Under the pieces are notes generated by a model that was not told the origin of the DNA, ran no database searches, and worked only from the letters and a program-made list of their open reading frames with translations. From Bacteroidota bacterium (GTDB taxonomy: Bacteria; Bacteroidota; Rhodothermia; Rhodothermales; Salinibacteraceae), in NCBI GenBank assembly GCA_009908945.1, contig JAAAOI010000167.1, forward strand, positions 1-37,089: DNA of 37,089 bases. Reading direction: 5' to 3'. This document shows, in pieces, positions 3,658 through 36,599 of the stretch. Numbering within the stretch: position 1 is the first letter of the stretch; the number at the start of each line of letters is the position of its first letter. The position numbers and the translations under genes were made by a program.

Positions 3658-6600
3658 TTAGTCAGTTGGGGGCTCGGGCTGTGGGGGCACGACGCGTACC
3701 GTGGCGCCGGAGGGAACGGTGCCCTCCAGCTTCTCCAGCGCCGCCGTGGCCTCTTCAGCTGTAGCGAATGGACCGGCACCCACGTGATAGACCGTGCCTT
3801 CGTCCGTTCCTACAGAAAACAGGGCCACGTCCACGTCTTGATCGCGCAGGCGATCCCGGAAGGTGGCCGCCGAGCGCGTAGCGTATTGCAGGTTATCCCA
3901 GCTCACCAACGAGATAGCGTGTTGCCCGGCGGCCCATGCGAAGTCGGCCGTCGTGTCGTCGCGTTCGGGGCCGGGAATGCCCGCTACGGCAGGCCTGGCT
4001 GCTTCCTCAGCCGCCGGCTCTTCTGCTATCGCATCGGGTACTGTTTCCGTAGGGTTCTTATCGTCAGCTTCTTCTTCCAGCAGGCGGGCCACCTGCTCGG
4101 CGCGTGCAGCAGCGGCGGCTGCCGGATACTGCATCTGTAGACGCCTGAAGACGTCCGCTACGGTGGCTCCTGCTGGGGGTGCGGTATGCGCTGCCGCAGC
4201 AGGGGGCGCGACTCCGACGCTGAGCAGGGGCTCGGGGGCACCCGACGGATCCCCCATTGCCTGCTCCCGGCTACCCGCCCGCGCCGCAACGGAGTCAGCC
4301 GGCGTACGTCCTACGCGGATCATGTCAGCAGGCCGCGCGGCGTCGGGCAAGCGGGGCCCCTCCGCGTAGGCGCGCAGGAGCGCCTGTGCCAAAGCGCGGA
4401 CAGACGCCGGGGGGTGCAGGGATGTAGGGCCCTGGGTAGACCCCGACGTGTCAGCCGGTTGCCCACGTCCTGCCGACGCATCGGTCGGAGCCTCCGCGTT
4501 TTGGGCCAGCCCCCCTTCTACCAAGCCCGCGACGTGCAACACATCAGGCGGGAGCAGTTGCCGCAGCGGTGTCAACGGATCGCGCCCAGATTCTACCAGC
4601 GACTCGAGGATGAACGAGCCTGCAGCATACAGCGCCTGTGGGGCGACGTCCGTCTCGTCATACGCCGTCGCCAACAGCAAAAGCTGTACGATGGCGTTCC
4701 GCGGCTGTGCTTCACGCCACTGCCGCACGGCGCGCCTGTAGGCGGCTGTTGCCGTTGCCGAGCGTCCATCGGCAGACTCCAGGTCAGAAAGCTCTTCGTC
4801 CCGCCGCAACTGCTGGGCTACGTCAGAGTCCGGGTAGGCCGTGAGCAGTTCCTGCTCCAGTCGGGCCGCGGCCGTGGGGTTGCCTGCGGCCTCGTGTGCC
4901 TGCGTGAGGGCGTACAATGCCCGCAGGGTTAGTTCATCATTGCCCTCGCGCTCCAGCACCTGCTCGTACCAGGGGATGGCATCGGCCGGCTGGTTTAATG
5001 CCAGCAGAAAGGCGTTGCCCACATCGTACATCGCGCGGCGCTGCCGAGCCTGCAGGGCCTTGCGGCTGGCAGCATCCCGCGGTACATCAGACACGTCCAC
5101 TGGCGGCAGGACTTCGTCGCGCTCCGCCTGCGCCAGTATTTCCTCTGTCATGCCGGTATCGGCCGTCTCTACCGTGTCCGTTTCTGAACGGCGTTCAGCG
5201 CGTTGCATGCGCGCAGCGGCGCCTCGGCGCCAGTCGGGCGTGAGAGGTCGATCGCCCCAGCGACGCACAAAGCCAACGAGGGCGTCCTGTACCCGCACGG
5301 GATCGCGGTATGACAAAAACCCGGCACCTTGCTGGCCGCTCGCCTGCCCTCCCCCCTGTCCCCCCAGTTGCCCCTGCTGCCCCATCTGCTGGTCAGCTGT
5401 GGCCTGGAGTTCAGCCCGAACGTCGCTCGCGCGAAGCTCCCGCCGGACGCCCGCGCCGGGGCGCGCCCGGGTACGCCGCTCTGCCGCCAGCTCTGCCGCT
5501 CGCTGCTCACGCAACTCGCGCACAAAAGCTTGAAACTCTTCTTGGCTCAGCGCGCCCAGTTCCAGGAGCGAGTCGGTGTGCGTTACCTCTTGGTAGGCCT
5601 CCGCAAACTGGGAGAAGATAGCGCGCTGCTCCTCTGCGTCGGCAATAGCGGCTGGCGCAAGTGGGCGCTGTGGGCCATCGTCTGTCCGTGTACGCCCCAG
5701 CCGCGTCGCTGCAGTATCGTAATGAGCGGCTGCACGTTCGTAGTCGGCGTGAGCGTAGCGATACAACTCTGCGAGGCCGTAGTGAATACGCCCCTCGACG
5801 TCGGCATCCAGCGGGGCTTCTCGCTCGTTGAGCAGCGCTTGATACCGCGCCACGGCCGCGTCCGGGGCCTCCATGGCCTGCAGGATGCGGGCAGCCAGGT
5901 AAGCGGGCTCCGCGCGGCGTTCGAAGTAGGCACCGTCGCGCGCCAAGCGCTCGGCACGTTGCAGGGCCTGCTCCCGGTCGCCCTGAAGGCCTGCCACTTC
6001 GATGGCGCTGTACCGGGCGGCGTACGTCAGCTCAAAGTTGAGCGCTGCCGCTGCTGCCGCGCTGTACGCCTGCTCCGCCTCGCCGTGGCGTCCGAGCGCC
6101 TCATTCACCTGCCCCAGCAGGAAGAACCCGCGCGCCTCCAGGGTTCGGTTGGGGGCGGCTGCGGTCCCTAACCGAAGCGCGTCCCGCGCGGCGGTCCAGT
6201 GTTCCTGATAGGCCTCAGCGGCCCCGAGGATCAGCCAGTACTGACTCCGCCAGTGGTCGGGCACCTCCTCATCCGCGGCCAATACGGACTCCAGAAAGCC
6301 GGCGGCCTCCCCGTACCGCTCCGCCCGCAGCAACGTACGAGCCAGCCACACCTGTGCTTCGTGCCGGCGCTCGGTTTGCAGCGCTGCAACCTCTTCGAAC
6401 TTCTCTACCGCCCCCACATAGTTCTGCAGGTAGACGTACGACTGGCCAATCAGCATCAAGGCGTCGTCGACGTAACGGGAGTTGCCGTGGCGTCGCAGAA
6501 TATCGGCGCTTTTCTCAACGGCATCATCAAAGTGCCGAGGATCCCGGACCGGCGCCGGCGGGGCAAACAGCGAGAGCAGGCGCGTGCGGTCGATACGCTC

Positions 6601-6873
6601 ATCCGCTGGCGCAACCTGGGCTACGCCTTCCTCGAACGCGCGCTCTGCATTGTAAAATGTGTTGTAGTACGCGGTGAAGTTGGACCACCGCTGGCTCACG
6701 AACGAGCTCTGGCCGCATCCGCTAAGCAGGAGCAGAACGATCAGCACGACCGCCACAGGGAGGACCCGCGAGGCCGCAACAGCCCAGCCCACAGACGTCC
6801 GGAACGCGGAGACAAGAACAGGCACAGGGCGAACGGCTGGCACAGCGGCCAGCTCACAGATGAGAGGAAGCAC
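3658..6873 (-). CDS. PorW/SprE-like TPR lipoprotein with C-terminal SPOR domain
   Basis: Large putative outer-membrane lipoprotein of up to 1071 residues. Lipobox LLSGC places the lipidated Cys at residue 53. The GTG start at 6873 gives a long leader, whereas an internal GTG at 6792 gives a textbook signal peptide of about 25 residues, so the true start may be 6792. After the Cys comes the segment FTAYYNTFYNAERAFEEG, which resembles the conserved N-terminus of PorW/SprE, a Bacteroidota type IX secretion and gliding protein. Helical TPR-like repeats rich in A-Y-G patterns follow, then a Gln/Gly-rich linker (about 470-500), more TPRs, and a disordered Ala/Pro-rich stretch. The last ~85 residues look like a SPOR (peptidoglycan-binding) domain. 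It begins 9 bp after pyk. The SPOR addition is unusual for PorW, and the secretion role is inferred from the N-terminus only. Confidence 0.72.
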   Translation of the reverse strand: MLPLICELAAVPAVRPVPVLVSAFRTSVGWAVAASRVLPVAVVLIVLLLLSGCGQSSFVSQRWSNFTAYYNTFYNAERAFEEGVAQVAPADERIDRTRLLSLFAPPAPVRDPRHFDDAVEKSADILRRHGNSRYVDDALMLIGQSYVYLQNYVGAVEKFEEVAALQTERRHEAQVWLARTLLRAERYGEAAGFLESVLAADEEVPDHWRSQYWLILGAAEAYQEHWTAARDALRLGTAAAPNRTLEARGFFLLGQVNEALGRHGEAEQAYSAAAAAALNFELTYAARYSAIEVAGLQGDREQALQRAERLARDGAYFERRAEPAYLAARILQAMEAPDAAVARYQALLNEREAPLDADVEGRIHYGLAELYRYAHADYERAAAHYDTAATRLGRTRTDDGPQRPLAPAAIADAEEQRAIFSQFAEAYQEVTHTDSLLELGALSQEEFQAFVRELREQRAAELAAERRTRARPGAGVRRELRASDVRAELQATADQQMGQQGQLGGQGGGQASGQQGAGFLSYRDPVRVQDALVGFVRRWGDRPLTPDWRRGAAARMQRAERRSETDTVETADTGMTEEILAQAERDEVLPPVDVSDVPRDAASRKALQARQRRAMYDVGNAFLLALNQPADAIPWYEQVLEREGNDELTLRALYALTQAHEAAGNPTAAARLEQELLTAYPDSDVAQQLRRDEELSDLESADGRSATATAAYRRAVRQWREAQPRNAIVQLLLLATAYDETDVAPQALYAAGSFILESLVESGRDPLTPLRQLLPPDVLHVAGLVEGGLAQNAEAPTDASAGRGQPADTSGSTQGPTSLHPPASVRALAQALLRAYAEGPRLPDAARPADMIRVGRTPADSVAARAGSREQAMGDPSGAPEPLLSVGVAPPAAAAHTAPPAGATVADVFRRLQMQYPAAAAAARAEQVARLLEEEADDKNPTETVPDAIAEEPAAEEAARPAVAGIPGPERDDTTADFAWAAGQHAISLVSWDNLQYATRSAATFRDRLRDQDVDVALFSVGTDEGTVYHVGAGPFATAEEATAALEKLEGTVPSGATVRVVPPQPEPPTD

Positions 6874-6882
6874 GACGCAACG

Positions 6883-8310
6883 TCAGACGCGGCTGACGTG
6901 CACCATGTTCGTCCGGCCCTTCGCAGGAAGCGGCATGCCCGCCGTAATGACAACCAGGCTTCCAGGCTTCACAGAGCCATAGTTATTGAGGATACGATGC
7001 ACAGCAGCCACCCCCTCGTCGGTATCATCCTGAAAGGGAATCTGGAACGCCTGGGTGCCCCAGAGGAGGCTTAGGCGACGGACGACCCGCTCGTTGTCAG
7101 TAAATGCATAAATAGGAGAGTCCGGGCGGTGACGCGCAATCATCCGCGCGGTCGTGCCTGAGGCCGTTAGACAGGCAATGGCATCCGCGTGCACTTGCTC
7201 AGCTACCTGGCAGGCCTGGTAGCTGATGGACTCGGTGACATCTTGCGAGGATGTGGCTCGGCCGCTGGCCGGCTGCACTTTCATGCGATATTGCTCTTGG
7301 TAGCGCTCGGCCTCGAAAATGATCTCAGCCATCGTTTCCACTACACGTACCGGGTACTGTCCTACAGCCGTCTCGCCGCTGAGCATCACTGCATCACTGC
7401 CATCCAGCACAGCGTTGGCCACATCGCTCGATTCCGCACGGGTCGGGCGTGGGTTCTCGATCATGCTCTCCAGCATCTGCGTGGCCGTGATGACGGGCTT
7501 GGCTGCCTGTAGCGATCGCTGGATGAGGGTCTTTTGCGCCCGGGGCACATGCGACATCGGCATCTCTATCCCCAGGTCGCCGCGGGCTACCATGATACCG
7601 TCGGCCTTCCGCATAATGCGATCGATATTGCGCACCGCCTCCGGCTTTTCGATTTTGGCAATCACATTGGTTTCCTTGCCCGAGGCGTCGATTTGATCCA
7701 GCAGCCGCACCACATCGGACTGGTCGCGGACAAACGAGAGGGCTACAAAGTCGACATCGTGCGATAACCCAAACTGAAGGTCGCGCCGGTCTTTCTCGGT
7801 CAGGGAGGGCGTGCTCGTGCGGATGTCCGGCAGGTTCACACCTTTGCGCGAACGCAGCGGGCCGCCGACGACCACCTCGGTGACCACCTCATCGTCATGA
7901 ATCGCCCGCACCTTCAGCTCCAGGAGCCCATCGTCGATGAGGACCCGGCCGCCCACGGACAGATCCTCCGAGAGGCCCTCATAACTGACGAACACCCGCT
8001 CGTTCGTACTCTCCTCCCGTGCCTGTGAGGTTAGGATCAACTCCTGCCCTTGCTTCAGCAAGACGCCGCCCCCTTTCACATCCCCGATCCGGATTTTGGG
8101 GCCCTGCAAGTCCTGCAGGATCGACACCGTCTTCCCCACCTCTTCAGCAGCCTTCCGGACGTGGGCAATGTTGGCGGCATGGTCCTCATGCTTCCCGTGC
8201 GAGAAGTTAAGCCGTGCTACGTTCATCCCCGCCTCGATGAGCGCCCGGATGGTGGCATAATCAGAGGTGGCGGGGCCCAGCGTGCAAACAATCTTCGTTC
8301 GTCGTTCCAT
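6883..8310 (-). CDS. pyk: Pyruvate kinase
   Basis: 475 residues from the ATG at 8310. It converts phosphoenolpyruvate and ADP to pyruvate and ATP in the last step of glycolysis. The start was chosen because MERRTKIVCTLGPATSD is the family N-terminus; the reading frame extends 33 codons upstream with no family resemblance. Seen: LNFSHG near the N-terminus, KIEKPEAVRNIDRI, and the signature region MVARGDLGIEMP with the catalytic Lys in the preceding KIEKPE. The ATQMLESMI segment and a C-terminal allosteric domain ending in TNMVHVSRV follow. The extra PEP-utilising domain found in some Bacillus enzymes is absent. The upstream spacer carries a 21-bp tandem duplication. Product feeds the pyruvate dehydrogenase encoded at 16701-20419. 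Confidence 0.97.
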   Translation of the reverse strand: MERRTKIVCTLGPATSDYATIRALIEAGMNVARLNFSHGKHEDHAANIAHVRKAAEEVGKTVSILQDLQGPKIRIGDVKGGGVLLKQGQELILTSQAREESTNERVFVSYEGLSEDLSVGGRVLIDDGLLELKVRAIHDDEVVTEVVVGGPLRSRKGVNLPDIRTSTPSLTEKDRRDLQFGLSHDVDFVALSFVRDQSDVVRLLDQIDASGKETNVIAKIEKPEAVRNIDRIMRKADGIMVARGDLGIEMPMSHVPRAQKTLIQRSLQAAKPVITATQMLESMIENPRPTRAESSDVANAVLDGSDAVMLSGETAVGQYPVRVVETMAEIIFEAERYQEQYRMKVQPASGRATSSQDVTESISYQACQVAEQVHADAIACLTASGTTARMIARHRPDSPIYAFTDNERVVRRLSLLWGTQAFQIPFQDDTDEGVAAVHRILNNYGSVKPGSLVVITAGMPLPAKGRTNMVHVSRV

Positions 8311-8383
8311 GCAGCAGCGGCAGTAGATGTAGAGGGGGGTTGAGCCGGAAGGTAACGCATGCGCTCCCGACGCGCAATCGGAC

Positions 8384-8427
8384 CACCCAAGGTCGTTACG
8401 GATGTTCACCCAAGGTCGTTACGGATG
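8384..8427. repeat. 21-bp direct repeat, two copies, period 23
   Basis: CACCCAAGGTCGTTACGGATG occurs exactly at 8384-8404 and 8407-8427, separated by TT. It lies in the 162-bp spacer upstream of pyk and downstream of the site-2 protease gene. The copies are identical, so the duplication is recent or maintained. It could be a paired regulator site in the pyk leader or a simple replication slippage product. Confidence 0.9.
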
Positions 8428-20419: not shown

Positions 20420-20713
20420 AGAGTGGGTACGTCGTCAATCAGGGGGGCAAAGGCAGTGTACGTGGCGGGCCACGGAAAGCATCGTTTCTATTCAAGGCTG
20501 CGGAGCAGGTTTCTTTTCGGGCACCACGGGAGGGCCCGGCAGCCTCGCTGCAGTTTACTCGCCAGGATAGAAAATCCAATCACCAAATGCCGAACGAAAA
20601 AACGGTGAGCGTCAGGCGTAGAAGCCGCGCGTCGGGTCGTTGTAAATCAGCCCCGTTCCTCCTACGTTTAAGACTCCACCCTTTCGGTGTCTTGCTTTCT
20701 GACGGTCGTCCCT

Positions 20714-21448
20714 GTGCCCCTCCCCGACCTTACCCTGTTCATCGTACCGACCTACAACGAGGTCGAAAATATTGGCACGTTGCTGACGGATACCCTGCGC
20801 CTGCCAGACCGGGTGCACGTGCTGGTGGTAGATGACGCCTCGCCCGATGGCACAGCCGATCTTGTGGCAGGGTACTGTGAGGCCCATCCCGCGCGCGTGC
20901 ATCTCTTGCGCCGCGACGGCAAGATGGGGTTGGGCAGCGCCTACCGCACCGGGTTTCGGTATGCGCTCCGGCGCGGCTACCCGTTGATCGGAGAGATGGA
21001 CGCTGATCTCTCCCACAACCCGGCCGACATCCCGGACCTGACGGCTCCGCTCCGCGCAGGTACCGCGGATATGACCATCGGCTCTCGCTACGTAAATGGG
21101 GTGCGCGTGATGAACTGGCCCCTCGGGCGGCTGATCCTGTCGTACAGCGCCGGCATCTACACCCGCGCCATTACCCACCTCCCGGTGTGGGACGTCACCG
21201 CTGGCTTTGTGTGCTACCACCGGCGGGTGCTGGAGGCTCTCGACATCGACCGCATCCGGTCCACCGGCTACTCCTTTCAGATCGAGATGAAATACCGCGC
21301 CTGGCGTGCAGGCTTTCGGGTCGAGGAGGTGCCTATTGTTTTTACCGAGCGCACGGAAGGCCAGTCCAAGATGAGTAAAGCGATTGTGCGTGAAGCCGCC
21401 TGGAAGGTGTGGGAACTGCGCCTGCGCGACACCATCGGGCGGTTGTGA
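20714..21448 (+). CDS. Polyprenyl-phosphate mannose/glucose synthase, GT2 family
   Basis: 244 residues from GTG 20714; the frame opens at GTG 20687 and either could be used. DPM1-type enzymes transfer a sugar from a nucleotide donor to a polyprenyl phosphate at the inner face of the membrane. Seen: the Rossmann-like start LTLFIVPTYNEVENIGTL, VLVVDDASPDGTAD, GLGSAYRTGFRYAL, and the donor/metal motif EMDADLSHNP. A GSRYVNGV loop, VTAGFVCYHRRVL and SYSFQIEMKYRA follow. There is no C-terminal membrane domain, so it is the short soluble type. The lipid-linked sugar product would feed glycan or protein O-mannosylation, but no glycosylation gene is next to it. Confidence 0.93.
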   Translation: MPLPDLTLFIVPTYNEVENIGTLLTDTLRLPDRVHVLVVDDASPDGTADLVAGYCEAHPARVHLLRRDGKMGLGSAYRTGFRYALRRGYPLIGEMDADLSHNPADIPDLTAPLRAGTADMTIGSRYVNGVRVMNWPLGRLILSYSAGIYTRAITHLPVWDVTAGFVCYHRRVLEALDIDRIRSTGYSFQIEMKYRAWRAGFRVEEVPIVFTERTEGQSKMSKAIVREAAWKVWELRLRDTIGRL

Positions 21449-21528
21449 GGGGGACCGCGCGCCGTGGCCGTGGTACCGCTTTCCACGCTTCTTCCCATTC
21501 GGCCCCTTTCTTCTGTAGGAATGCCTGC

Positions 21529-21611
21529 TATTTTTGTAACAGCTCCAGGCAAGCCCCGCGTACCCCTGGCAACGCCAGGGCTCCTTCTTGCACACACCTT
21601 CTTGCACACAC
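21529..21611 (+). promoter_or_regulatory. Leader upstream of icd: TATTTTTG box, hairpin and 14-bp tandem duplication
   Basis: TATTTTTG (21529-21536) fits the Bacteroidota -7 consensus TAnnTTTG, but no TTG lies at the right distance upstream, so it is a weak promoter candidate. A 7-bp hairpin CCCTGGC-AAC-GCCAGGG lies at 21564-21580. CTTCTTGCACACAC is repeated exactly in tandem at 21584-21597 and 21598-21611. The hairpin could end the glycosyltransferase transcript, but no T-run follows. Confidence 0.4.
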
Positions 21612-21670
21612 CACCGACCAGAACCGCTGTGGCAGGTCCCGCGCAGCGCTCCTCCTTCACTTACCCCCGC

Positions 21671-22933
<1,263 letters not shown>

Positions 22934-28466: not shown

Positions 28467-29963
28467 TCAGCCCTCCACCTCCAACTCCTCCTGTATCCCG
28501 CTAAACTGCTCCAGGGCAGCCCCCAGGTTTTCGACGATGGTGGAGGCCAGCACGTCGGGCAGTGGGAGGTTTTCGGTGTCTTCGAGGCTGTCGTCTTTCA
28601 GCCAGAAGATGTCGAGGTTTGTTTTGTCGCGGGCCACGAGGTCGTCATAGTCGAACGACCGGAAGCGCTCGCTCTCCTCCCGGTTGTGCCGCTCGCCCGG
28701 ATTGTAGCACGCGATGAAGTCCTCCAGGTCGCTGAGGGTGAGCGGGTTGCGCTTTAGCGTGAAGTGCTTGTTCGTGCGCAGGTCGTAGATCCACAGCTTC
28801 TGCGTCCACGGCGTTTCGCTGGCCGATTTGCGCTCGAAAAAGAGCACGTTGGCCTTCACGCCCTGCGCGTAGAAGATGCCGGTCGGCAGGCGCAGCAGCG
28901 TGTGGACGTCGTACTGGCGCAGTAGCCGGTCGCGTACGGTTTCGCCTGAGCCACCCTCAAACAGCACGTTGTCGGGCACTACGATGGCGGTCTCGCCGCC
29001 GATGGCCAGCATGTTCGCCACGTGCTGCACAAAGTTAAGCTGCTTGTTCGAGGTGGTCGTCCAGAAGTCGTCGCGCTCGTAGGTGAGTTTCTTCGTCTCC
29101 GCCTGGCCCTGTTCGTTGACGATCGTGAAGCTGCTCTTCTTGCCGAACGGCGGATTGGTGAGCACGATGTCGTAGCGCTGATCAGGGAGCTCCAGTAGGG
29201 CATCGCCGACAACCACGGGTGGTTGCTGAGCGTCGGTGATGGCATCCGAGCCGATGCCGTGCAGGTACAGGTTCATGGTGCACAGCCGCGCGGTGTTGTC
29301 CACAATCTCCCAGCCCTGAAAGGTCTCCCCGCGAAGCGCCTCGTGCTCGTCCCGTGTGAGGTTGGGATAGTGTTCGGTGATGAAGTCCTTGGCAGCCAGG
29401 AAGAACCCGCCCGTGCCACAGGCCGGATCGGCGATGGTTTGGCCGGGCTCGGGCGCGATAGCCTCCACCATCGCCTGGATAAGCGGGCGCGGCGTGAAGT
29501 ACTGGCCGGCGCCACTCTTCGTATCCTGCGCGTTTTTCTCCAGCAGGCCCTCGTAGATGTCGCCCTTCACATCCACGTCCAGCCCCATCCACGTTTCCTC
29601 GTCGATGTACTCGATGAGGCGCCGAAGCCTCGCGGGGTTCTGAATGCGGTTCTGGCTTTTGCGGAAGATGATGCCGAGCATCCCCCCTTCGTTCTGCAGG
29701 GCCTGCAACGTTTCGATGTAGTGCTGCTCCAGCTCCGCGCCCTTTCGCTCGTGGCCCGCCTCATCCCGCAGGAGGCGCTCCCACTGGTACGCTTCGGGGA
29801 TGGGCGACTCCTCACCGAGGTATTCCCGCCGCTCCTGATCCATCTTCAGGAAGAGCAGATACGTGAGCTGCTCCACATAGTCGCCATAACTTACGCCGTC
29901 GTCCCGCAAGACGTGGCAGTAGTTCCAGAGGCGCTGTACGATTTGAGGGGAGTTGTTGGACAT
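28467..29963 (-). CDS. hsdM: Type I restriction-modification methyltransferase (M) subunit
   Basis: 498 residues. Adenine-N6 methyltransferase that protects host DNA as part of the HsdM2-HsdS complex. Seen: the HsdM N-terminal helical domain (MSNNSPQIVQRLWNYCHVLRDDG, then LTYLLFLKMDQERREYLGEE in sequence), the gate motif YFTPRPLIQAMVEA, AdoMet motif I DPACGTGGFFLAA (179-191), and catalytic motif IV NPPF (270-273). The C-terminal region contacts HsdS. This is the last gene of the minus-strand unit, 22 bp after the GIY-YIG gene. It stands away from hsdS and hsdR, with two other genes in between, which is uncommon. All residues needed for activity appear intact. Confidence 0.96.
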   Translation of the reverse strand: MSNNSPQIVQRLWNYCHVLRDDGVSYGDYVEQLTYLLFLKMDQERREYLGEESPIPEAYQWERLLRDEAGHERKGAELEQHYIETLQALQNEGGMLGIIFRKSQNRIQNPARLRRLIEYIDEETWMGLDVDVKGDIYEGLLEKNAQDTKSGAGQYFTPRPLIQAMVEAIAPEPGQTIADPACGTGGFFLAAKDFITEHYPNLTRDEHEALRGETFQGWEIVDNTARLCTMNLYLHGIGSDAITDAQQPPVVVGDALLELPDQRYDIVLTNPPFGKKSSFTIVNEQGQAETKKLTYERDDFWTTTSNKQLNFVQHVANMLAIGGETAIVVPDNVLFEGGSGETVRDRLLRQYDVHTLLRLPTGIFYAQGVKANVLFFERKSASETPWTQKLWIYDLRTNKHFTLKRNPLTLSDLEDFIACYNPGERHNREESERFRSFDYDDLVARDKTNLDIFWLKDDSLEDTENLPLPDVLASTIVENLGAALEQFSGIQEELEVEG

Positions 29964-29985
29964 AAAGGTAAATCAGGTTGTGTGT

Positions 29986-30834
29986 TTATTGACGTTCAAG
30001 CTCATCGAGTGTCTGCCCCGCTCTGTTGCGCCACTGCTTCCAGCCGTTGGCCGGGCGTCCCTGTACGGTCTGTGCTGCTGCACTCGGAGAGGTGAACACG
30101 TAGTCTTCCGAAAAAATGAGATGGTCGCCATTTTCAATCAAGAGGCCATCTTCGCGGAGTTTCTGTCTTAGGCTACGCACCCACTCCGCCTTATCGTTGA
30201 TGTCGTCACGCCGGGCCTGGGAGCCCTTGAATACAACGAAACCATCTTCCGTGTATTCACCGCTGGCCTCTATGCCGAGCTTCTGGACGCCGCAGTACAG
30301 CACTTCCCGTTTCTCCGCCGGGTCCCCGGCCTCTTGCAAGACCGGAAAACCGAGCGTAGAAAGCAGGATGCGGGTGGTGCCAATATAATCGTAGAGATCA
30401 GCCTTGGTGGGCTCGGCCAGATAGGGCTCGCCCGGAGCTACTGAGTTTTCGAGATGGTAGCGCCCTATTTCTTGCGCCTGCTGGAGAAAATACCACTCCA
30501 GGTACCGGGCCTGCGCTTTATCGAAGGCACCTGTTTTCGATGAGATAATAACGGCCGTCGTCCAGAAGTCCTTTGACTGGTTATGTTGGCGAACCCGTTG
30601 GTAGCAGTCTTCGGCCTCCCCGATGTAAACATGGGGTTTGGCCGAGTCCTCGACATCACCAAAGAGGAAGTATACCCCCACGGTCTGGGGCTCTGGACGA
30701 ACATCAGCTGCACGGACTTTACTCCGCGGTATCTGAATAGCGTGGATGGTGCGACTGGTAATTTCCGCAATGCGGATACTCCGCGCGTTTCCGTCCGGCA
30801 GGAAAATCTGAATGGTTTTGGGTTGGACAGCCAT
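29986..30834 (-). CDS. GIY-YIG nuclease-like protein with C-terminal DUF4357
   Basis: 282 residues from ATG 30834 (GTG 30843 is alternative). The central region (about 50-130) has the GIY-YIG order: GVYFLF (53-58), VYIGEAEDCYQRVRQH (69-84) with Arg, then an acidic helix QARYLEWYFLQQA with a likely metal-binding Glu (113) and a terminal Asn (130). The motif Tyr-Ile-Gly is kept, so nuclease activity is plausible. The last ~55 residues (YVFTSPSAAAQTVQGRPANG and WKQWRNRAGQTLDELE) match DUF4357, a domain often found beside restriction systems. It lies between the SIR2-like gene and hsdM. Role within the R-M system, as an extra nuclease or regulator, is not known. Confidence 0.88.
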   Translation of the reverse strand: MAVQPKTIQIFLPDGNARSIRIAEITSRTIHAIQIPRSKVRAADVRPEPQTVGVYFLFGDVEDSAKPHVYIGEAEDCYQRVRQHNQSKDFWTTAVIISSKTGAFDKAQARYLEWYFLQQAQEIGRYHLENSVAPGEPYLAEPTKADLYDYIGTTRILLSTLGFPVLQEAGDPAEKREVLYCGVQKLGIEASGEYTEDGFVVFKGSQARRDDINDKAEWVRSLRQKLREDGLLIENGDHLIFSEDYVFTSPSAAAQTVQGRPANGWKQWRNRAGQTLDELERQ

Positions 30835-30975
30835 AGATGGCACTTCGGCTATTAGGAAGTCACGGACCAGCTGGAAGAAGCGATTCAGTCACCGCCATTC
30901 CGGAGGACGCGGCAATAACTCGCCACTATCCTCCGTGAACGGTACAACGTCTGTACACTCAGTGCCGTGTTCTTT

Positions 30976-32199
30976 TTACGAAAACAGTTCCTCAATTCCT
31001 TGTTCGCTACCCACAGGCATCAACTCAATGCGGTCTGAATCTTCGCTCACACTGTAATCTGCCCATAACGCATGCTCTCTCTTCTCGATTCCTGGTCGAT
31101 CTACGACGACCATAGTTCGACTTGGGTCTCTATTCATCCATCGAAATATAACATGGTTAATATGTTTATCACCAAATGAGTACCCGATTGAGACGAGCTC
31201 ATCGCATGCTTCCAGTCTCCTCTCAAAGGCTCTAAATAGCTCAAGAAAGGGGCCTTCCTCTGTTAGTTTGTTTCCAGAACCAAAAATAAGGGCTGGCTCA
31301 GACTTTGGCCCAGAGTACACTTTACTTATGTCGACTCTCTCGATCGTACGCTGCGGAAATATTTTTCCATCATTCTGGCTCTTCAAATTCAGGTCCGAGA
31401 AAAGCCAGTCAATTGATCCGTGGAGTTTGAGTAATTCAATTCCATACGCAACCGGCTCAAGCAAACTGTTTTGACGCCAGCGCTCTAAGCCTAAGTCAAC
31501 ACCCACTCCTAAACGATTCCCCGCCACCTCAACGGTATTGTCATAATTCAATGAGGCGATAGTTAATGCATTCATTTTTCCCATCTGTACCAGAGGATCC
31601 AAATAAGCGGTCTTACCCTCATCGTCAACCCAAACAAAATTCTTCAGGACCACTGTCAATTGTTTTGCTGCCTCGGCATAAGCATCCCTATGCCATGGCA
31701 TGGCATGGCTCTGAAAATAGTTCTTAAGCTCGCTTACAAATCTCCTTGCCACGAACCTAAAATCCGGAAGACGTGCGGATGTGTTCGGCTTGTCCCTCGC
31801 GGCTGCTTCAAGTGCGCGCTCAAATTCGTCTTCAAGCCTTCTTTCTTTGTCATGCGTATGGTCTCTTTTATCGATTTCCTCAACTCCTTTATGCCACTGC
31901 GTCACAAAAGGCGCAATATCGAGTTCGCTGCGTTGAGCAAGCATTCTAATGGATGCTATCAAATCCTCGATATTTATATTCTTGAGCGGATTCTTTCCCT
32001 GGTTTCCGGCCCTCATAGCGAGACCTCCCGCGACAAATCGAACCACGTCGACATGTCTGGTCCTCAACGGTTGAGCAATTCCAGGCGTGAAGCGCTCAAT
32101 TTCGAGAATCTTCTCGGTCATTTGCGTAGCCGTCGGAATACCCGCAGGGACGGATGCACCCGCACCAAGCAAAACAAAAGTTGGGTTTCTTGATGACAT
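30976..32199 (-). CDS. SIR2-like domain protein, putative NAD-degrading defence effector
   Basis: 407 residues. SIR2_2-type Rossmann core: N-terminal FVLLGAGASVPAGIPTA with GAGAS at 12-16, ASLNYDNTVEV (216-226) containing the family Asn and Asp, LLKLHGSIDWLF with the catalytic-type His260, and VSIGYSFGDKHINHVI (337-352). Family members in defence islands hydrolyse NAD when phage is sensed and kill or arrest the cell. Between the motifs lies a helical insert (residues 75-180) that may carry the sensor or multimer contact. No signal peptide or membrane segment is seen. It lies alone between hsdS (141 bp upstream) and the GIY-YIG gene (141 bp downstream), with a palindrome just before its ATG. 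Base composition is clearly more AT-rich than neighbours, suggesting recent transfer. Function is inferred from family. Confidence 0.85.
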   Translation of the reverse strand: MSSRNPTFVLLGAGASVPAGIPTATQMTEKILEIERFTPGIAQPLRTRHVDVVRFVAGGLAMRAGNQGKNPLKNINIEDLIASIRMLAQRSELDIAPFVTQWHKGVEEIDKRDHTHDKERRLEDEFERALEAAARDKPNTSARLPDFRFVARRFVSELKNYFQSHAMPWHRDAYAEAAKQLTVVLKNFVWVDDEGKTAYLDPLVQMGKMNALTIASLNYDNTVEVAGNRLGVGVDLGLERWRQNSLLEPVAYGIELLKLHGSIDWLFSDLNLKSQNDGKIFPQRTIERVDISKVYSGPKSEPALIFGSGNKLTEEGPFLELFRAFERRLEACDELVSIGYSFGDKHINHVIFRWMNRDPSRTMVVVDRPGIEKREHALWADYSVSEDSDRIELMPVGSEQGIEELFS

Positions 32200-32221
32200 G
32201 TTGACTACTGTCGATTGGAAT

Positions 32222-32240
32222 ACTCGGGATAATTCCGAGT
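32222..32240. promoter_or_regulatory. 19-bp palindrome before the SIR2-like gene
   Basis: ACTCGGGATAATTCCGAGT is a near-perfect palindrome: 8 of 9 pairs match around a central A. It lies 22 bp upstream of the SIR2-like ATG at 32199, where it would overlap the promoter or early leader. It could be an operator or a short RNA hairpin. Confidence 0.5.
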
Positions 32241-32340
32241 TGGCTCAGTATAACATCGGGGGAATGATAGGCTTGTCCTGGCAGAGCTCTGTAGCAGTTT
32301 AGCATCTTGCGCAACTGAATCAGACGTCCAATGACGATCG

Positions 32341-33828
32341 CTACAGGTCCATCGTCACCTGACCGGTAGGCTCGGCGGTGGGTTGGGGCGCGGGTGCGCT
32401 GTCTGGATCGGGTGCAACCAACGTCCCACTAAACGCCTGCTTCAAGATGCTCTGCCGCAACCGCTCGGCGCGCTGCAGTCCGCGGTCAATGGTGGCGGCG
32501 GTATCATCGGCAACGGACAGGAGACGCTCGACTTCGGCGACGATTTGTTTTTGTTCGGCGAGGGGTGAAAGGGGAATCGGTATTTTCTGCGTTATCCCTT
32601 TATTTAGTGCTTTCTGATTATTTCCTGATCCGAGTCTCCTAAGTGCCTGATACTGGCTCTCCAGGTAGAAATACACGAACATTGGAGGTACGTCCGACAT
32701 GGAGACACGAATCGCCGCCGAGTTCTGACTGTGGGCTGCTGGTACCTCCAGCTTAGCTACCATTCCCCTGGTCGGTCCCTGCCCTATCATACCCAGCAAC
32801 AGAGTACCAGCGGGATGAACGTCGGTCGAGCAATTGTTCAGTCCCTCTTCGGTTATCGTCTCCTCAGTATCGGTAATGCTTCGTTGATTGATTTCGCTAC
32901 TATTAGCCCACCTGATCTCTCCATCCCAATACTCTTCTCTTGATCTACGTGGCGTAGCACCGACGTGAACATCAAAGGCTTGGCCTAAGGAAGTCCAAAC
33001 CCACCCCTCAGGCAGCGCTGGTAAATCCTCGTTATCTGGTGACTCCGGCTCTTTGTACCGCTTCTTCCACCCGCTCGGCGGCTCCTTGCCCTTCGCTTCG
33101 TATTTGGCGCGATAGTCATTCTCCCACTGCACCCGCCGCTCCTCCAGAATCCGCTCCAGCAGCTCCTCGGCGGGTTCGGGGTCGTGGGACTGGCGCCAGT
33201 CGGCGGTGAGGCGGCCTTCGACGGCGGCCTGGAGGACGCTCTGCCGGTAGCGGTCGACCTGCCGGCGGGCGGTCTTCAGCGACGCTACCCCCGCATCCAG
33301 ATTGGAGAACAGCTCTTCGATCTTGTCGACAATCCGGTGCTGCTCCGGCAGGGGTGGGACTGGAATGGGAATTTTCTTGAATCGTGCTGCCGATAACTCC
33401 TTGAATGTCGTACCACTCGCAAAACTTTCGGCCAGTGACTTGCTTGCCAGCAAGTAATGATACACGTACTCGCTCGTAACGCTGTCTCCCGGAATTAAAT
33501 TCTTGAATCCCTGATTAGTCGAAATTGGGTTCTTTGCTATCACTGTATAGCCAATGGGCGCCCTCGAAGAAAACAGCACAGATCCTTCGGGCAGTAATCG
33601 TGCAGAACATGAGCTTAAGCCCTTCTCGGTTATGTTGCGACTTCCCTCGCGAATATACTTGCCCTGATAATCAGAAAGATCTGCGGGAGTCAGCCAAGGT
33701 ATCTTTCCACCAAAGTTAGAATCGTCTTTTGTAGAAGGCGTACTACCTGATTGGACTTCCCCGATTTCCCCAATTCTACTCCACTTCCAGTAGGCCGGAA
33801 TCGGGTAGGGCTGGCTTTGGTTACTCAT
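32341..33828 (-). CDS. hsdS: Type I restriction-modification specificity (S) subunit
   Basis: 495 residues with the usual two target-recognition domains. TRD1 is about 8-155 (YPIPAYWKWSRIGEIGEVQS and IPIPVPPLPEQHRIVDKIEE at its end), followed by a helical spacer. TRD2 is about 275-425 (LPEGWVWTSLGQAFDVHVGA, ending IPIPLSPLAEQKQIVAEVER), followed by a second helical spacer. The two PLPEQ/PLAEQ repeats are typical. It decides the bipartite DNA sequence read by both methylation and cleavage. The ATG at 33828 overlaps the hsdR stop by four bases (ATGA), so translation is coupled. The TRD DNA is more AT-rich than the spacers, consistent with TRD exchange. The target sequence cannot be read from this. 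Confidence 0.95.
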   Translation of the reverse strand: MSNQSQPYPIPAYWKWSRIGEIGEVQSGSTPSTKDDSNFGGKIPWLTPADLSDYQGKYIREGSRNITEKGLSSCSARLLPEGSVLFSSRAPIGYTVIAKNPISTNQGFKNLIPGDSVTSEYVYHYLLASKSLAESFASGTTFKELSAARFKKIPIPVPPLPEQHRIVDKIEELFSNLDAGVASLKTARRQVDRYRQSVLQAAVEGRLTADWRQSHDPEPAEELLERILEERRVQWENDYRAKYEAKGKEPPSGWKKRYKEPESPDNEDLPALPEGWVWTSLGQAFDVHVGATPRRSREEYWDGEIRWANSSEINQRSITDTEETITEEGLNNCSTDVHPAGTLLLGMIGQGPTRGMVAKLEVPAAHSQNSAAIRVSMSDVPPMFVYFYLESQYQALRRLGSGNNQKALNKGITQKIPIPLSPLAEQKQIVAEVERLLSVADDTAATIDRGLQRAERLRQSILKQAFSGTLVAPDPDSAPAPQPTAEPTGQVTMDL

Positions 33829-36599
33829 GCCGTAATCGCCTCATTCAGTTCATCCATAATGCTGGTGAGTTCATCGCGCCCAAAGAGCTTGATCGCGCGT
33901 ACGGGTCCGCCCCGGTCGTAGAAGGGCGGGTTTTGCAGGTCTTTCAGATCGATGGTCAGGTTGGCAGCCATGTAGCTTTTAATCAGCTCCAGCCATTCCA
34001 ACTGTTCGGCCGTAAAGCGCTGCTGGCGGTCCTGCTGGTCGAGCCACTCGTAAAAGCGCGCCTCCACCTCCTCCTGGTACGGGCGCAACTCGTCGTCCTC
34101 GCCCATGGCGTGGCGCACCAGCGAGATGATGTCGGTGAGGAGCCGCCTTTCGCCCGCCCCCTTTACTTTGGCGCGCTCCAACTGCGCGTAGGCGTTCCAG
34201 AGGTCCTCCGGCGTAAGGTAGAGCGGCGGTTGCTTGATAGCCTCGGCCAGCTCGCGGATCTGCTGCAGGGTCAGGTGCCGCTTCCCGTAGGGCTGGTTGT
34301 AGAAAATCTGCAGCGCAGTGATTTCGTCCTTGTGCGTTTCAATAAAGTCCTGAAACGACTCCACCGCCTTGGCTGCATGTTCCTCGGTGCCCACCGCCCC
34401 CACCTCCAGCACCTCGTCCTGGCTTACTTCGTCGAGCGTGATGTAGCTGCGCTTGCGCACCGTTTCGATGGTCTTCCGCACGGCAGGGTCGTCGATGACG
34501 CGGCAGGCCTCGTCGATCAGGTCGGCGGCCACCGCCTCCAGCTGCTCCTCCGAGGGACTGTCGGTTTCGTATCGGGCTTTGGCCTCCTTCACCTGCGTAT
34601 CGGCGTCCGTGGCGTCAATCAGTCCGTTGATGAGATCGGGCAGCGAATCCGCTTCGTGGCCGCGCTCCTCGGCGCTTTGCTCCAGCGCTTCGGTGATCTC
34701 CTTCCGGTCGCTCCGCGTGAGCCCCTGGTTCATCCGGGCGAGGCGGTCGGCGAGGGAGCAGAGGCTGTCCTCATTCCGCATCGACCCCAGCGCAATGCCG
34801 CGCATCAGCTTATCGAACAACACCGACGGCTTCCGGTCCAGCGGCTGTGTATCCGTTTTGTCGTTCTCCGTGACGCCCACCGCATCCACCAGCACAAAGT
34901 GGTCCTTGATCTTCGCATCGCCCGTCACCGCCTGCAGGTCCGTCGGGTCGATGGTGCGCGTGCCGCGGCCTTTCATCTGGTCGAAGTATACGCTCGACTT
35001 CACGTCGCGCAGGAAGAGCAGCACCTCCAGCGGCTTGATGTCGGTGCCCGTCGCGATCATATCCACCGACACCACAATGCGCGGCAGGGGCGAGTTGCGA
35101 AACTGCTTGATGACGGCCTCGGGGTCCTGCACGGTGTAGGTCACCTTTTTCGCGAACTCGTTTCCGCGGCCAAACTCTTCGCGGACGATGGCCAGCACCT
35201 CTTCGGCGTGGTTGTCATCTTTGCAGAAGATGAGCGTTTTGGGGACCTGCGAACGGTTCGGGAAGATGTCCGTGCAGATGCGGTCCCGAAAGGCCTTGAT
35301 GACGGTCCGGATCTGGTCGATGGAGGTCACCGACCGGTCGAGTTGCTTCGCGGTGTACTCCAGCTCCTCATCAAGCTCCTGAATGCGCTGGCGTCGCGTC
35401 TTCTTCTCGCGCTGCACCACCTGCTGCCCCGCCTCAATGGCGCTTCCTTCCTCCGATATTTTTGTGCGGATGCGGTAGATGTTGTACCCCACATTTACCC
35501 CGTCGGCCACGGAGCGCTCGTAAGGATATTCGCTCACCATGTTTTGGTTGAAGAAGCCGAATGTTTGCTTCGAAGGCGTGGCGGTCAGCCCGATGACGAA
35601 GGCGTCGAAATACTCGATGACCTGTCGCCAGAGGTTGTAGATGGAGCGATGCGACTCATCCACAATCACAAAGTCGAACGTCTCCGGCGGGATATCCGGG
35701 TTGTAGGCCACATCCTGCACCGTGCCCTCCGGCGTGTGCTCATAGAGGGACTGTTCTTCGTCGAGGGGATCCAGCTCACGCCCCCGCAGCATCGAGTAGA
35801 CGCGTTGAATGGTGGAGATGCACACGTCAGACACCCCCTCCACCGCATGCGACTGTAGCAGCTGCACGTTGTAGAGCTCCGTAAACTTGCGCCCGTCATC
35901 CGCCGTGGTGTACTGCTGAAACTCCTTTTCCGTCTGCCGCCCGAGGTTGGTACGATCCACGAGAAACAGGATGCGGTGGGCGTTGGCGTGCTTCAGCAGG
36001 CGGTAGGCCTGCGTCACGGCCATGAACGTTTTCCCAGCCCCCGTGGCCATCTGCACCAGCGCCCGCGGCCGGTTCTCGGCGAGGGAGCGCTCCAGCCCCG
36101 TGATAGCCTGAAACTGGCAGTCGCGCAGGGTGCCCCGCTGGATCGGCGGCATGGTTTGCAGGCGGGTGCGGAGCGTCTGGTCCTGCCCGCTCCAGCGTGC
36201 GAGCGTCTCAGGCTGGTGGAAGTGAAAGACGCGCCGCGAGCGGCTGTGCGGGTCGCGGGTGTCCCGAAAGTTGGTTTCGGTGCCGGTCGACTCGTACGCA
36301 AACGGCAGCGGCAGCTCCACGTGCGGCACATCCGCCGGCAACCCTTTCACGTACTTGCCCGACTGCTCCGCCACGCCGCTCAGCGTGGTGCCCTCCTTCT
36401 TCGCCTCGATGACGCCCACGGCCTGGCGGTCAACAAACAGCACATAGTCGGCCGCGCCCGTCGCCAGCGAGAACTCCCGCAGCGCCACGCCTTGCCCGGC
36501 ACTAAGGTCGAGCGCCGAGGCATCCTGCACCACCCAGCCCGCCTCCGCCAGCATGGCATCGATGCGCTTGCGCGCGCGGCCTTCAGGGGTGGACGGCAT
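33825..36599 (-). CDS. hsdR: Type I restriction endonuclease (R) subunit
   Basis: 924 residues. Translocating SF2 ATPase with an N-terminal nuclease. Seen: the PD-(D/E)xK nuclease with Asp51 (ADYVLFVD) and Glu65-x-Lys67 (VIEAKKEG), Walker A ATGAGKT (185-191), DESH (314-317) for motif II, LTATP (338-342) for motif III, and the later SVDMIATGTDIKPLEV and FDQMKGRGTR helicase motifs. The C-terminal helical region binds HsdM. First gene of the unit, ATG at 36599. The stop codon overlaps hsdS. Length is in the normal range for the family (about 900-1100), and every key residue appears to be intact, so the system is probably active if hsdM and hsdS are expressed. Confidence 0.96.
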   Translation of the reverse strand: MPSTPEGRARKRIDAMLAEAGWVVQDASALDLSAGQGVALREFSLATGAADYVLFVDRQAVGVIEAKKEGTTLSGVAEQSGKYVKGLPADVPHVELPLPFAYESTGTETNFRDTRDPHSRSRRVFHFHQPETLARWSGQDQTLRTRLQTMPPIQRGTLRDCQFQAITGLERSLAENRPRALVQMATGAGKTFMAVTQAYRLLKHANAHRILFLVDRTNLGRQTEKEFQQYTTADDGRKFTELYNVQLLQSHAVEGVSDVCISTIQRVYSMLRGRELDPLDEEQSLYEHTPEGTVQDVAYNPDIPPETFDFVIVDESHRSIYNLWRQVIEYFDAFVIGLTATPSKQTFGFFNQNMVSEYPYERSVADGVNVGYNIYRIRTKISEEGSAIEAGQQVVQREKKTRRQRIQELDEELEYTAKQLDRSVTSIDQIRTVIKAFRDRICTDIFPNRSQVPKTLIFCKDDNHAEEVLAIVREEFGRGNEFAKKVTYTVQDPEAVIKQFRNSPLPRIVVSVDMIATGTDIKPLEVLLFLRDVKSSVYFDQMKGRGTRTIDPTDLQAVTGDAKIKDHFVLVDAVGVTENDKTDTQPLDRKPSVLFDKLMRGIALGSMRNEDSLCSLADRLARMNQGLTRSDRKEITEALEQSAEERGHEADSLPDLINGLIDATDADTQVKEAKARYETDSPSEEQLEAVAADLIDEACRVIDDPAVRKTIETVRKRSYITLDEVSQDEVLEVGAVGTEEHAAKAVESFQDFIETHKDEITALQIFYNQPYGKRHLTLQQIRELAEAIKQPPLYLTPEDLWNAYAQLERAKVKGAGERRLLTDIISLVRHAMGEDDELRPYQEEVEARFYEWLDQQDRQQRFTAEQLEWLELIKSYMAANLTIDLKDLQNPPFYDRGGPVRAIKLFGRDELTSIMDELNEAITA

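Follow-up and report, generated by a model that had tools for sequence, protein, structure and literature searches.

The window analysed here is a 37,089-nucleotide stretch (contig JAAAOI010000167.1, positions 1 to 37,089) of the Bacteroidota assembly GCA_009908945.1, from the family Salinibacteraceae in the class Rhodothermia. At 3658-6873 on the minus strand it carries a gene that, judged from its sequence, is a genuine porW (sprE) of a known secretion system, the type IX secretion system (T9SS), and that ends in a SPOR domain. The predicted PorW-SPOR fusion is not peculiar to the window genome and is the commonest architecture of its clade. The protein is probably a PorW with a tethered, exchangeable C-terminal module that serves to dock the translocon, either to the wall or to a partner in the envelope. 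PorW and the T9SS were already known, and what appears to be new relative to the literature found is a lineage-typical, exchangeable C-terminal module on PorW.

A PorW/SprE lipoprotein

The open reading frame (ORF) runs from 6873 to 3658, starts with GTG and encodes 1071 amino acids; the same interval read in the same frame on the plus strand contains stop codons. The preliminary description had proposed a lipoprotein gene here, and the gene is real as a lipoprotein ORF on the minus strand; all features of it given below lie on that strand. Its exact start is uncertain, with five more GTG codons before the lipobox. The lipobox (LSGC followed by G, residues 50-54, 6712-6726) was read by eye and has Gly at +2 after the Cys; it shows the pattern of a type II signal peptide, Cys then Ser or Gly, again by eye and without SignalP. 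The mature N-terminus would be Cys53.

The PorW/SprE equivalog model of NCBIfam (NF052312) matched the protein over residues 47-749 (4627-6735) with 286.6 bits against a cut-off of 250 (E 4.8e-85). This core is a TPR region, in which TPR_12 and TPR_16 exceed their Pfam gathering scores. The earlier proposal that the part after the lipobox resembles PorW/SprE thus held when it was put to a profile search. Among 14 control genomes NF052312 exceeded its cut-off in none, and 12 gave matches below the cut-off through TPR-like matches. Using phmmer, SprE of Flavobacterium johnsoniae (chain 8gl8_I) aligned with residues 41-691 (E 9.1e-13); no other chain of known structure turned up at E ≤ 0.001 in the sequence search.

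Within the core lies a Gln/Gly-rich linker (residues 490-518, 5320-5406), which in one pairwise alignment falls opposite the Finger Region of SprE. The segment after it (5227-5319, FLSYRDP...RRWGDRP...DWR) aligns with FYFYNP...KKMWGNR...NWR of SprE. In F. johnsoniae the Finger Region spans E445-T550 and its disordered part binds PorD (PMC10994853; papers are cited here for the parts of them that were available). The core is followed by a region of residues 750-984 (3922-4626) that is rich in Ala and Pro from about residue 780; its residues 780-984 include 52 Ala and 23 Pro among 205. Both the linker and the long Pro/Ala stretch had been pointed out before and are readily read in the sequence.

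The C-terminal SPOR domain

The last part of the protein matches Pfam SPOR (PF05036) over residues 1001-1050 (3724-3873) with 26.7 bits (gathering cut-off 21, E 7.1e-6). An AlphaFold2 model of the last 119 residues, made with 24 relatives, extends the domain to residues 985-1061 (3691-3921) and arranges it as strand-helix-strand-strand-helix-strand; for most of the domain the block pLDDT is 90-94. This is the RNP-like beta-alpha-beta-beta-alpha-beta fold of SPOR domains. In superposition the best match was the SPOR domain of RlpA (Z 9.3, 2.8 A, 76 residues), and the SPOR domains of DedD, CwlC and DamX ranked 4 to 6. A C-terminal SPOR domain, as the preliminary description had suggested, is therefore backed by both the family model and the structure prediction.

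Elsewhere in the window genome, contig C123 (L143:6484-13674) encodes in a row a large TPR protein, a further ORF, a 408-aa SPOR protein and an ExbB/TolQ-like protein. In the 408-aa protein SPOR scores 22.3 bits with Pfam, and an HU-type DNA-binding match stays below the threshold. Compared with the PorW-SPOR model, it (L005, L143) scored best among the other SPOR proteins of the genome, with 68.4 bits against 15.7-17.6 bits for the best domain of the rest.

Tail modules across the class

Named relatives on GTDB contigs are mostly from Rhodothermales/Rhodothermia and Balneolaceae. NF052312 exceeded its cut-off in 160 of 195 class genomes. At E ≤ 0.001 it matched all 195, but also 11 of the 14 controls, and for this reason matches at that level were not used as evidence of presence. 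PorW sequences were taken from 187 of 190 loci (three have no ORF of 400 aa), and 15 that were cut by contig ends were left unclassified. The 172 complete tails and that of the window were sorted by local models into 87 TonB-C-like, 66 SPOR and 20 with neither, a count of 173 that includes genomes present in both collections. Among the 147 distinct class PorWs used for the tree, 53 have SPOR and 76 a TonB-C-like module, so that 129 carry one or the other.

The E-values of these local models are not independent, because these tails also served to seed and iterate the models. None of 1038 reversed or shuffled tails matched them at E up to 1. As an independent check, Pfam at E ≤ 0.01 detected SPOR in 12 of 29 tails and TonB_C in 28 of 60, in two groups split by eye beforehand; one tail of the first (SPOR) group matches TonB_C (E 3.3e-19; L056 by alignment and classification). 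For a model of the TonB-C-like module, the 17 best Foldseek rows are C-terminal domains of TonB type, including those of FusB and HasB, with Z up to 7.0. A profile comparison of SPOR and TonB-C gave no support for a relationship between the two (1.2-1.4%). No literature description of PorW paired with SPOR was found, the only co-mention being one on Salmonella and chlorhexidine that was judged unrelated from its title and abstract, and 'TonB C-terminal' was absent from the literature matches listed.

The TonB-C-like module also contains two nearly invariant Cys (C32 and C121 in the first row of alignment A6, which contains L102 and 32 further tails), which may form a disulfide. The pair is of interest because in F. 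johnsoniae outer-membrane parts of the T9SS are joined to the track by disulfides (PMC12635249).

Evolution of the tail

A FastTree phylogeny was built from 154 PorW cores with the tails removed, 147 of them from the class; L033 was dropped as a probable misidentified ORF. Its construction gave warnings about uneven composition and about long branches in the outgroup. It contains a clade of 69 rows with mainly SPOR tails (51, with 13 lacking a module and 5 TonB) and a clade of 78 rows with mainly TonB tails (71, with 5 lacking a module and 2 SPOR). At least 11 module changes are required on the tree, compared with a mean of 57.7 for shuffled tails, and swaps seem to have occurred in both directions. 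SPOR is kept in all three genomes of the window genus in the class draw (the window genome, G126 and G162). One clade of window-family genomes mostly lacks a module (12 of 13 rows). Repeated replacement of one small periplasmic module by another at the same position is what an exchangeable docking module would show.

Two SPOR tails, L096 (8320-9099) and L113, are found inside the TonB clade. The first of them carries a tandem pair of SPOR domains, matched by Pfam as two stretches with 64.0 bits.

The remaining type IX system and its motor

The window genome (90% complete, a draft of 268 contigs) encodes SprA, with 1773 bits for TIGR04189 against a cut-off of 200 in a search made of this genome only, and has 19 matches to the T9SS C-terminal domain (CTD) signal TIGR04183 at E ≤ 0.001. 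With the PorW match itself, these place the gene in a genome that has other type IX components, a point on which the preliminary description had made its reading depend. TIGR04183 exceeded its cut-off in all 31 genomes of the relatives draw, and among the 14 controls matched in two and exceeded it in one. CTD enzymes occur in cultured Rhodothermales, and Xyn10A of Rhodothermus marinus is cell-attached (PMC6539836).

In current descriptions, T9SS transport draws its energy from a motor complex working via a moving track of PorK/GldK type (PMC12635249; PMC10994853). Of the components whose presence had been suggested as a check, SprA was thus found, and none of PorK, PorL, PorM and PorN was detected in the 90%-complete genome with the GldK, GldL, GldM and GldN models. 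One GldK match (contig C154, 19.6 bits) was rejected, the protein being EgtB (577.8 bits, cut-off 360), with EgtD next on the contig (392.1 bits, cut-off 290.9). As a positive control, in a draw of 148 genomes across the phylum GldN was detected in 36 (35 over the cut-off) and GldL in 39 (36 over the cut-off). From this class only G035 appeared, with a GldL match of 31.6 bits that is below the cut-off; this genome also has a PorM match.

Complete absence of the motor from the class was rejected. Weak partial GldM matches in 17 of 41 relatives, none over the cut-off, led to a divergent porK-L-M-N operon in window-family relatives (L145:6823-11124 and L147:4717-9127) and in f14 (L146:5590-8433), all with model scores below the cut-offs. 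Its PorK-like protein scores 229.9 bits (GldK cut-off 350) and its PorM-like protein 57.5 bits (GldM cut-off 180). The PorL-like protein has only a Pfam GldL_N match of 20.0 against a cut-off of 24 and the PorN-like protein has no match, and the names of these two therefore come from gene position and inspection by eye; in L145 neither protein was matched by the NCBIfam GldL and GldN models. A class-specific PorM profile from this operon (A3) matched 23 of 195 class genomes, or 15 of the 159 that are at least 90% complete, one of the 23 (G126, 19.5 bits) being counted as spurious. It found nothing in the window genome, and the other two members of the genus, whose genomes are 85-88% complete, gave no credible match. 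Most class genomes therefore lack a PorM visible to these models, and a more divergent motor in them is possible. Searches on the T9SS in Rhodothermus, Salinibacter, Balneolaceae and Rhodothermia returned no title or abstract on a missing motor among the matches listed; an earlier notice is possible in a 2013 survey of gliding and Por genes (PMC3553832).

Tails were also compared with motor content. The 16 motor-bearing genomes comprise 8 tails without a module, 7 TonB and 1 SPOR, against 42 SPOR, 41 TonB and 7 without a module in 90 motor-less genomes (Fisher p 0.00016); six of 22 motor-bearing tails were left out (G116, G142, G170, G178, G180, G184). The idea that motor loss explains SPOR was not supported, with a median p of 1 across six phylogenetically independent pairs.

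PorW tails outside the class

The tail of F. johnsoniae SprE is unresolved and is described as not conserved (PMC10994853), and the C-terminal D6 region of Porphyromonas gingivalis PorW binds PorN, that is, the motor side (PMC8754138). Thirty other-class PorWs (L235-L264), the best-scoring loci of the phylum draw and inferred to be from Bacteroidia, were read. A profile of 11 of their tails (A7) matched SprE (8gl8_I) at 745-869 with an E of 6.6e-45, and its comparison with a profile of 14 further tails (A8) indicated one domain (95%, E 3.3e-8); the five rows without that tail (L246, L247, L248, L256, L258) had been dropped before this comparison. The tail is therefore a conserved domain in 25 of the 30 PorWs, and the tail of SprE, despite its description as not conserved, is one instance of a domain widespread among PorWs of the phylum.

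A diverged SPOR is one possible reading of this domain. Compared with the SPOR profile the other-class tails scored 18.2, which none of 100 column shuffles reached, but slices of other alignments reached 18.12 (75 slices from PorW core, PorM and PorL, the top ones all from one PorW-core stretch with 24-26 aligned columns against 69). The hhalign probabilities were 0.5 to 9.5%. Pfam SPOR was found in 1 of the 14 tails (E 0.017) and in 0 of the 11, and those 11 relatives of the SprE tail domain also lacked Pfam TonB_C.

What the C-terminal module may do

By analogy with F. johnsoniae, the lipid anchor would hold PorW under the outer membrane, the TPR scaffold would be seated at the SprA rim and PorD would be recruited by the Gln/Gly-rich finger loop. 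The domain architecture suggests that SPOR, on its long Ala/Pro tether, may reach into the periplasm, where the wall itself or a partner associated with it would become the docking site of the translocon, and in the sister lineage the TonB-C-like domain would take its place.

Several observations weigh against this reading. In Foldseek the SPOR model obtained weak E-values (the best, 4.1e-3, was to a mitoribosomal chain; RlpA had probability 1.00), 18 of the 147 class PorW tails have neither module, and in F. johnsoniae T9SS function showed no detectable change when the C-terminal tail of SprE was deleted (PMC10994853). In SPOR domains denuded glycan is bound by the face of the sheet, and a Gln that is highly conserved takes part together with a basic patch (PMC6895207). 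This strand-1 Gln (Q270 in RlpA, Q351 in DamX), a conserved feature among structurally solved SPOR domains though not part of the Pfam SPOR definition, is absent at the aligned column in all 53 distinct PorW SPOR domains, with Ser in that of the window, and the strand-2 Arg is present in 29 of the 53, with His in the window. Canonical binding of denuded glycan is therefore doubtful, and the earlier claim of anchoring to the septum or wall is still a conjecture; overall, the preliminary description is partly supported. Given the missing Gln and the location of the best-scoring other SPOR protein of the genome (the C123 protein) next to an ExbB/TolQ-like gene, a tethered docking module is favoured, whose target may be wall glycan or a protein.

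It is possible, though less probable, that the SPOR of PorW is strictly a protein-docking module and not a glycan binder, with the fold kept, the ligand face changed and an envelope protein as partner, perhaps one shared with the C123 SPOR protein. The loss of the Gln throughout the PorW SPORs would fit, and so would the high score of the C123 protein, whose matched strand 1 also lacks Gln. The alternative module points the same way, TonB-C being a known protein-binding domain. Set against this are the 29 domains that keep the strand-2 Arg, and glycan binding could persist without the Gln, as SPOR glycan recognition depends partly on main-chain atoms (PMC6895207).

Another explanation is that the module would be dispensable decoration, PorW working by its core and the tail drifting between SPOR, TonB-C and disorder without strong selection. 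The silent tail deletion in F. johnsoniae and the tails without a module, including the clade in which nearly all rows lack one, argue for this. It is nevertheless unlikely, given that 129 of 147 PorWs have retained SPOR or TonB-C across a large divergence and that the changes between them are far fewer than in shuffled tails.

A bolder explanation starts from the missing PorK, PorL, PorM and PorN: the module would link the translocon to a motor of ExbB/D or TolQ/R type or to the wall, replacing the PorLM motor and the PorKN track. The rarity of PorM matches in the class compared with PorW, the many phylum genomes with GldN and GldL over the cut-offs, none of them of this class, and the binding of the P. 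gingivalis C-terminal region to PorN are consistent with it. However, module and motor cannot serve as independent evidence of each other (a module is found in 8 of 16 motor-bearing genomes and missing in 7 of 90 motor-less ones), the phylogenetically independent pairs give no support, and a more divergent motor may be missed, as the sub-threshold GldL of G035 next to its PorM match illustrates. This explanation is improbable, and it is equally improbable that most Rhodothermia run a T9SS without PorK/L/M/N in which PorW is the adapter to some other energised or load-bearing envelope system.

That SPOR matches only by chance, or that misassembly made the gene chimeric, as the modest Pfam score and the many contigs of the draft might suggest, can practically be set aside, because relatives carry the same architecture (two genomes of the genus, L047 and L048, with best-segment identities of 69% and 48%) and no reversed or shuffled tail matched the local models.

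The class has PorW and CTD signals, and the window genome has SprA, but a motor is mostly not detected. The power source of the T9SS there is thereby a directly testable question, and the swapped SPOR and TonB-C modules on PorW are the first place to look.

Genomic neighbourhood

Directly upstream of porW lies pyk (6883-8409, minus strand), identified as pyruvate kinase by TIGR01064 (569.5 bits, cut-off 306.4), with 9 bases between its stop codon and the porW start. The preliminary description had seen the gene right behind pyk and rated this as a position away from known secretion genes. The adjacency is correct, and among 101 class loci with at least 500 bases upstream, 90 have pyk as the next gene upstream in the same orientation (a count over both collections, in which some genomes occur twice). 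In four of the remaining loci pyk is there but outside the distance rule, and in seven no pyk is nearby, these including two with under 1.5 kb upstream and one partial case. No such adjacency was found in 30 loci of other classes. The position of porW behind pyk is therefore ordinary for the class.

Further along the window, 28467-36599 (minus strand) carries type I restriction-modification-like M, S and R genes, with NCBIfam matches below the cut-offs. Between M and S are a 407-aa ORF (30976-32199) with a Pfam SIR2-like domain over the cut-off (37.9 bits) and a 285-aa ORF (29986-30843) without an NCBIfam match. The region looks like a defence island. A 431-aa ORF (20612-21907, minus strand) adjoins a pyruvate dehydrogenase E1 alpha gene and had no NCBIfam match at 1e-5 and no Pfam match at 0.01.

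Comparison with known systems

The closest described relative is F. johnsoniae SprE of the T9SS Extended Translocon, likewise a lipoprotein with a TPR scaffold; the Gln/Gly-rich linker of the window protein may correspond to its disordered finger loop. Unlike the window protein with its SPOR, SprE ends in another conserved domain (residues 759-870, PMC10994853), and according to the literature F. johnsoniae has GldK, GldL, GldM and GldN, in contrast to what was detected in the window genome. P. gingivalis PorW belongs to the same equivalog family by the name of the NCBIfam model and also has a C-terminal extension past the TPR core; the PorN that its D6 region contacts (PMC8754138) was not among the proteins detected in the window genome.

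The SPOR domains of RlpA, DamX, FtsN, DedD and CwlC share the fold and the Pfam match with the window domain. The SPOR proteins known so far have roles in division or morphogenesis (PMC6895207), whereas this one sits on a secretion scaffold and lacks the conserved Gln. The alternative module of the sister PorWs has in common with the C-terminal domain of TonB the Pfam match and the fold, but it sits on an outer-membrane lipoprotein scaffold and not on an inner-membrane TonB, and it carries its own pair of nearly invariant Cys.

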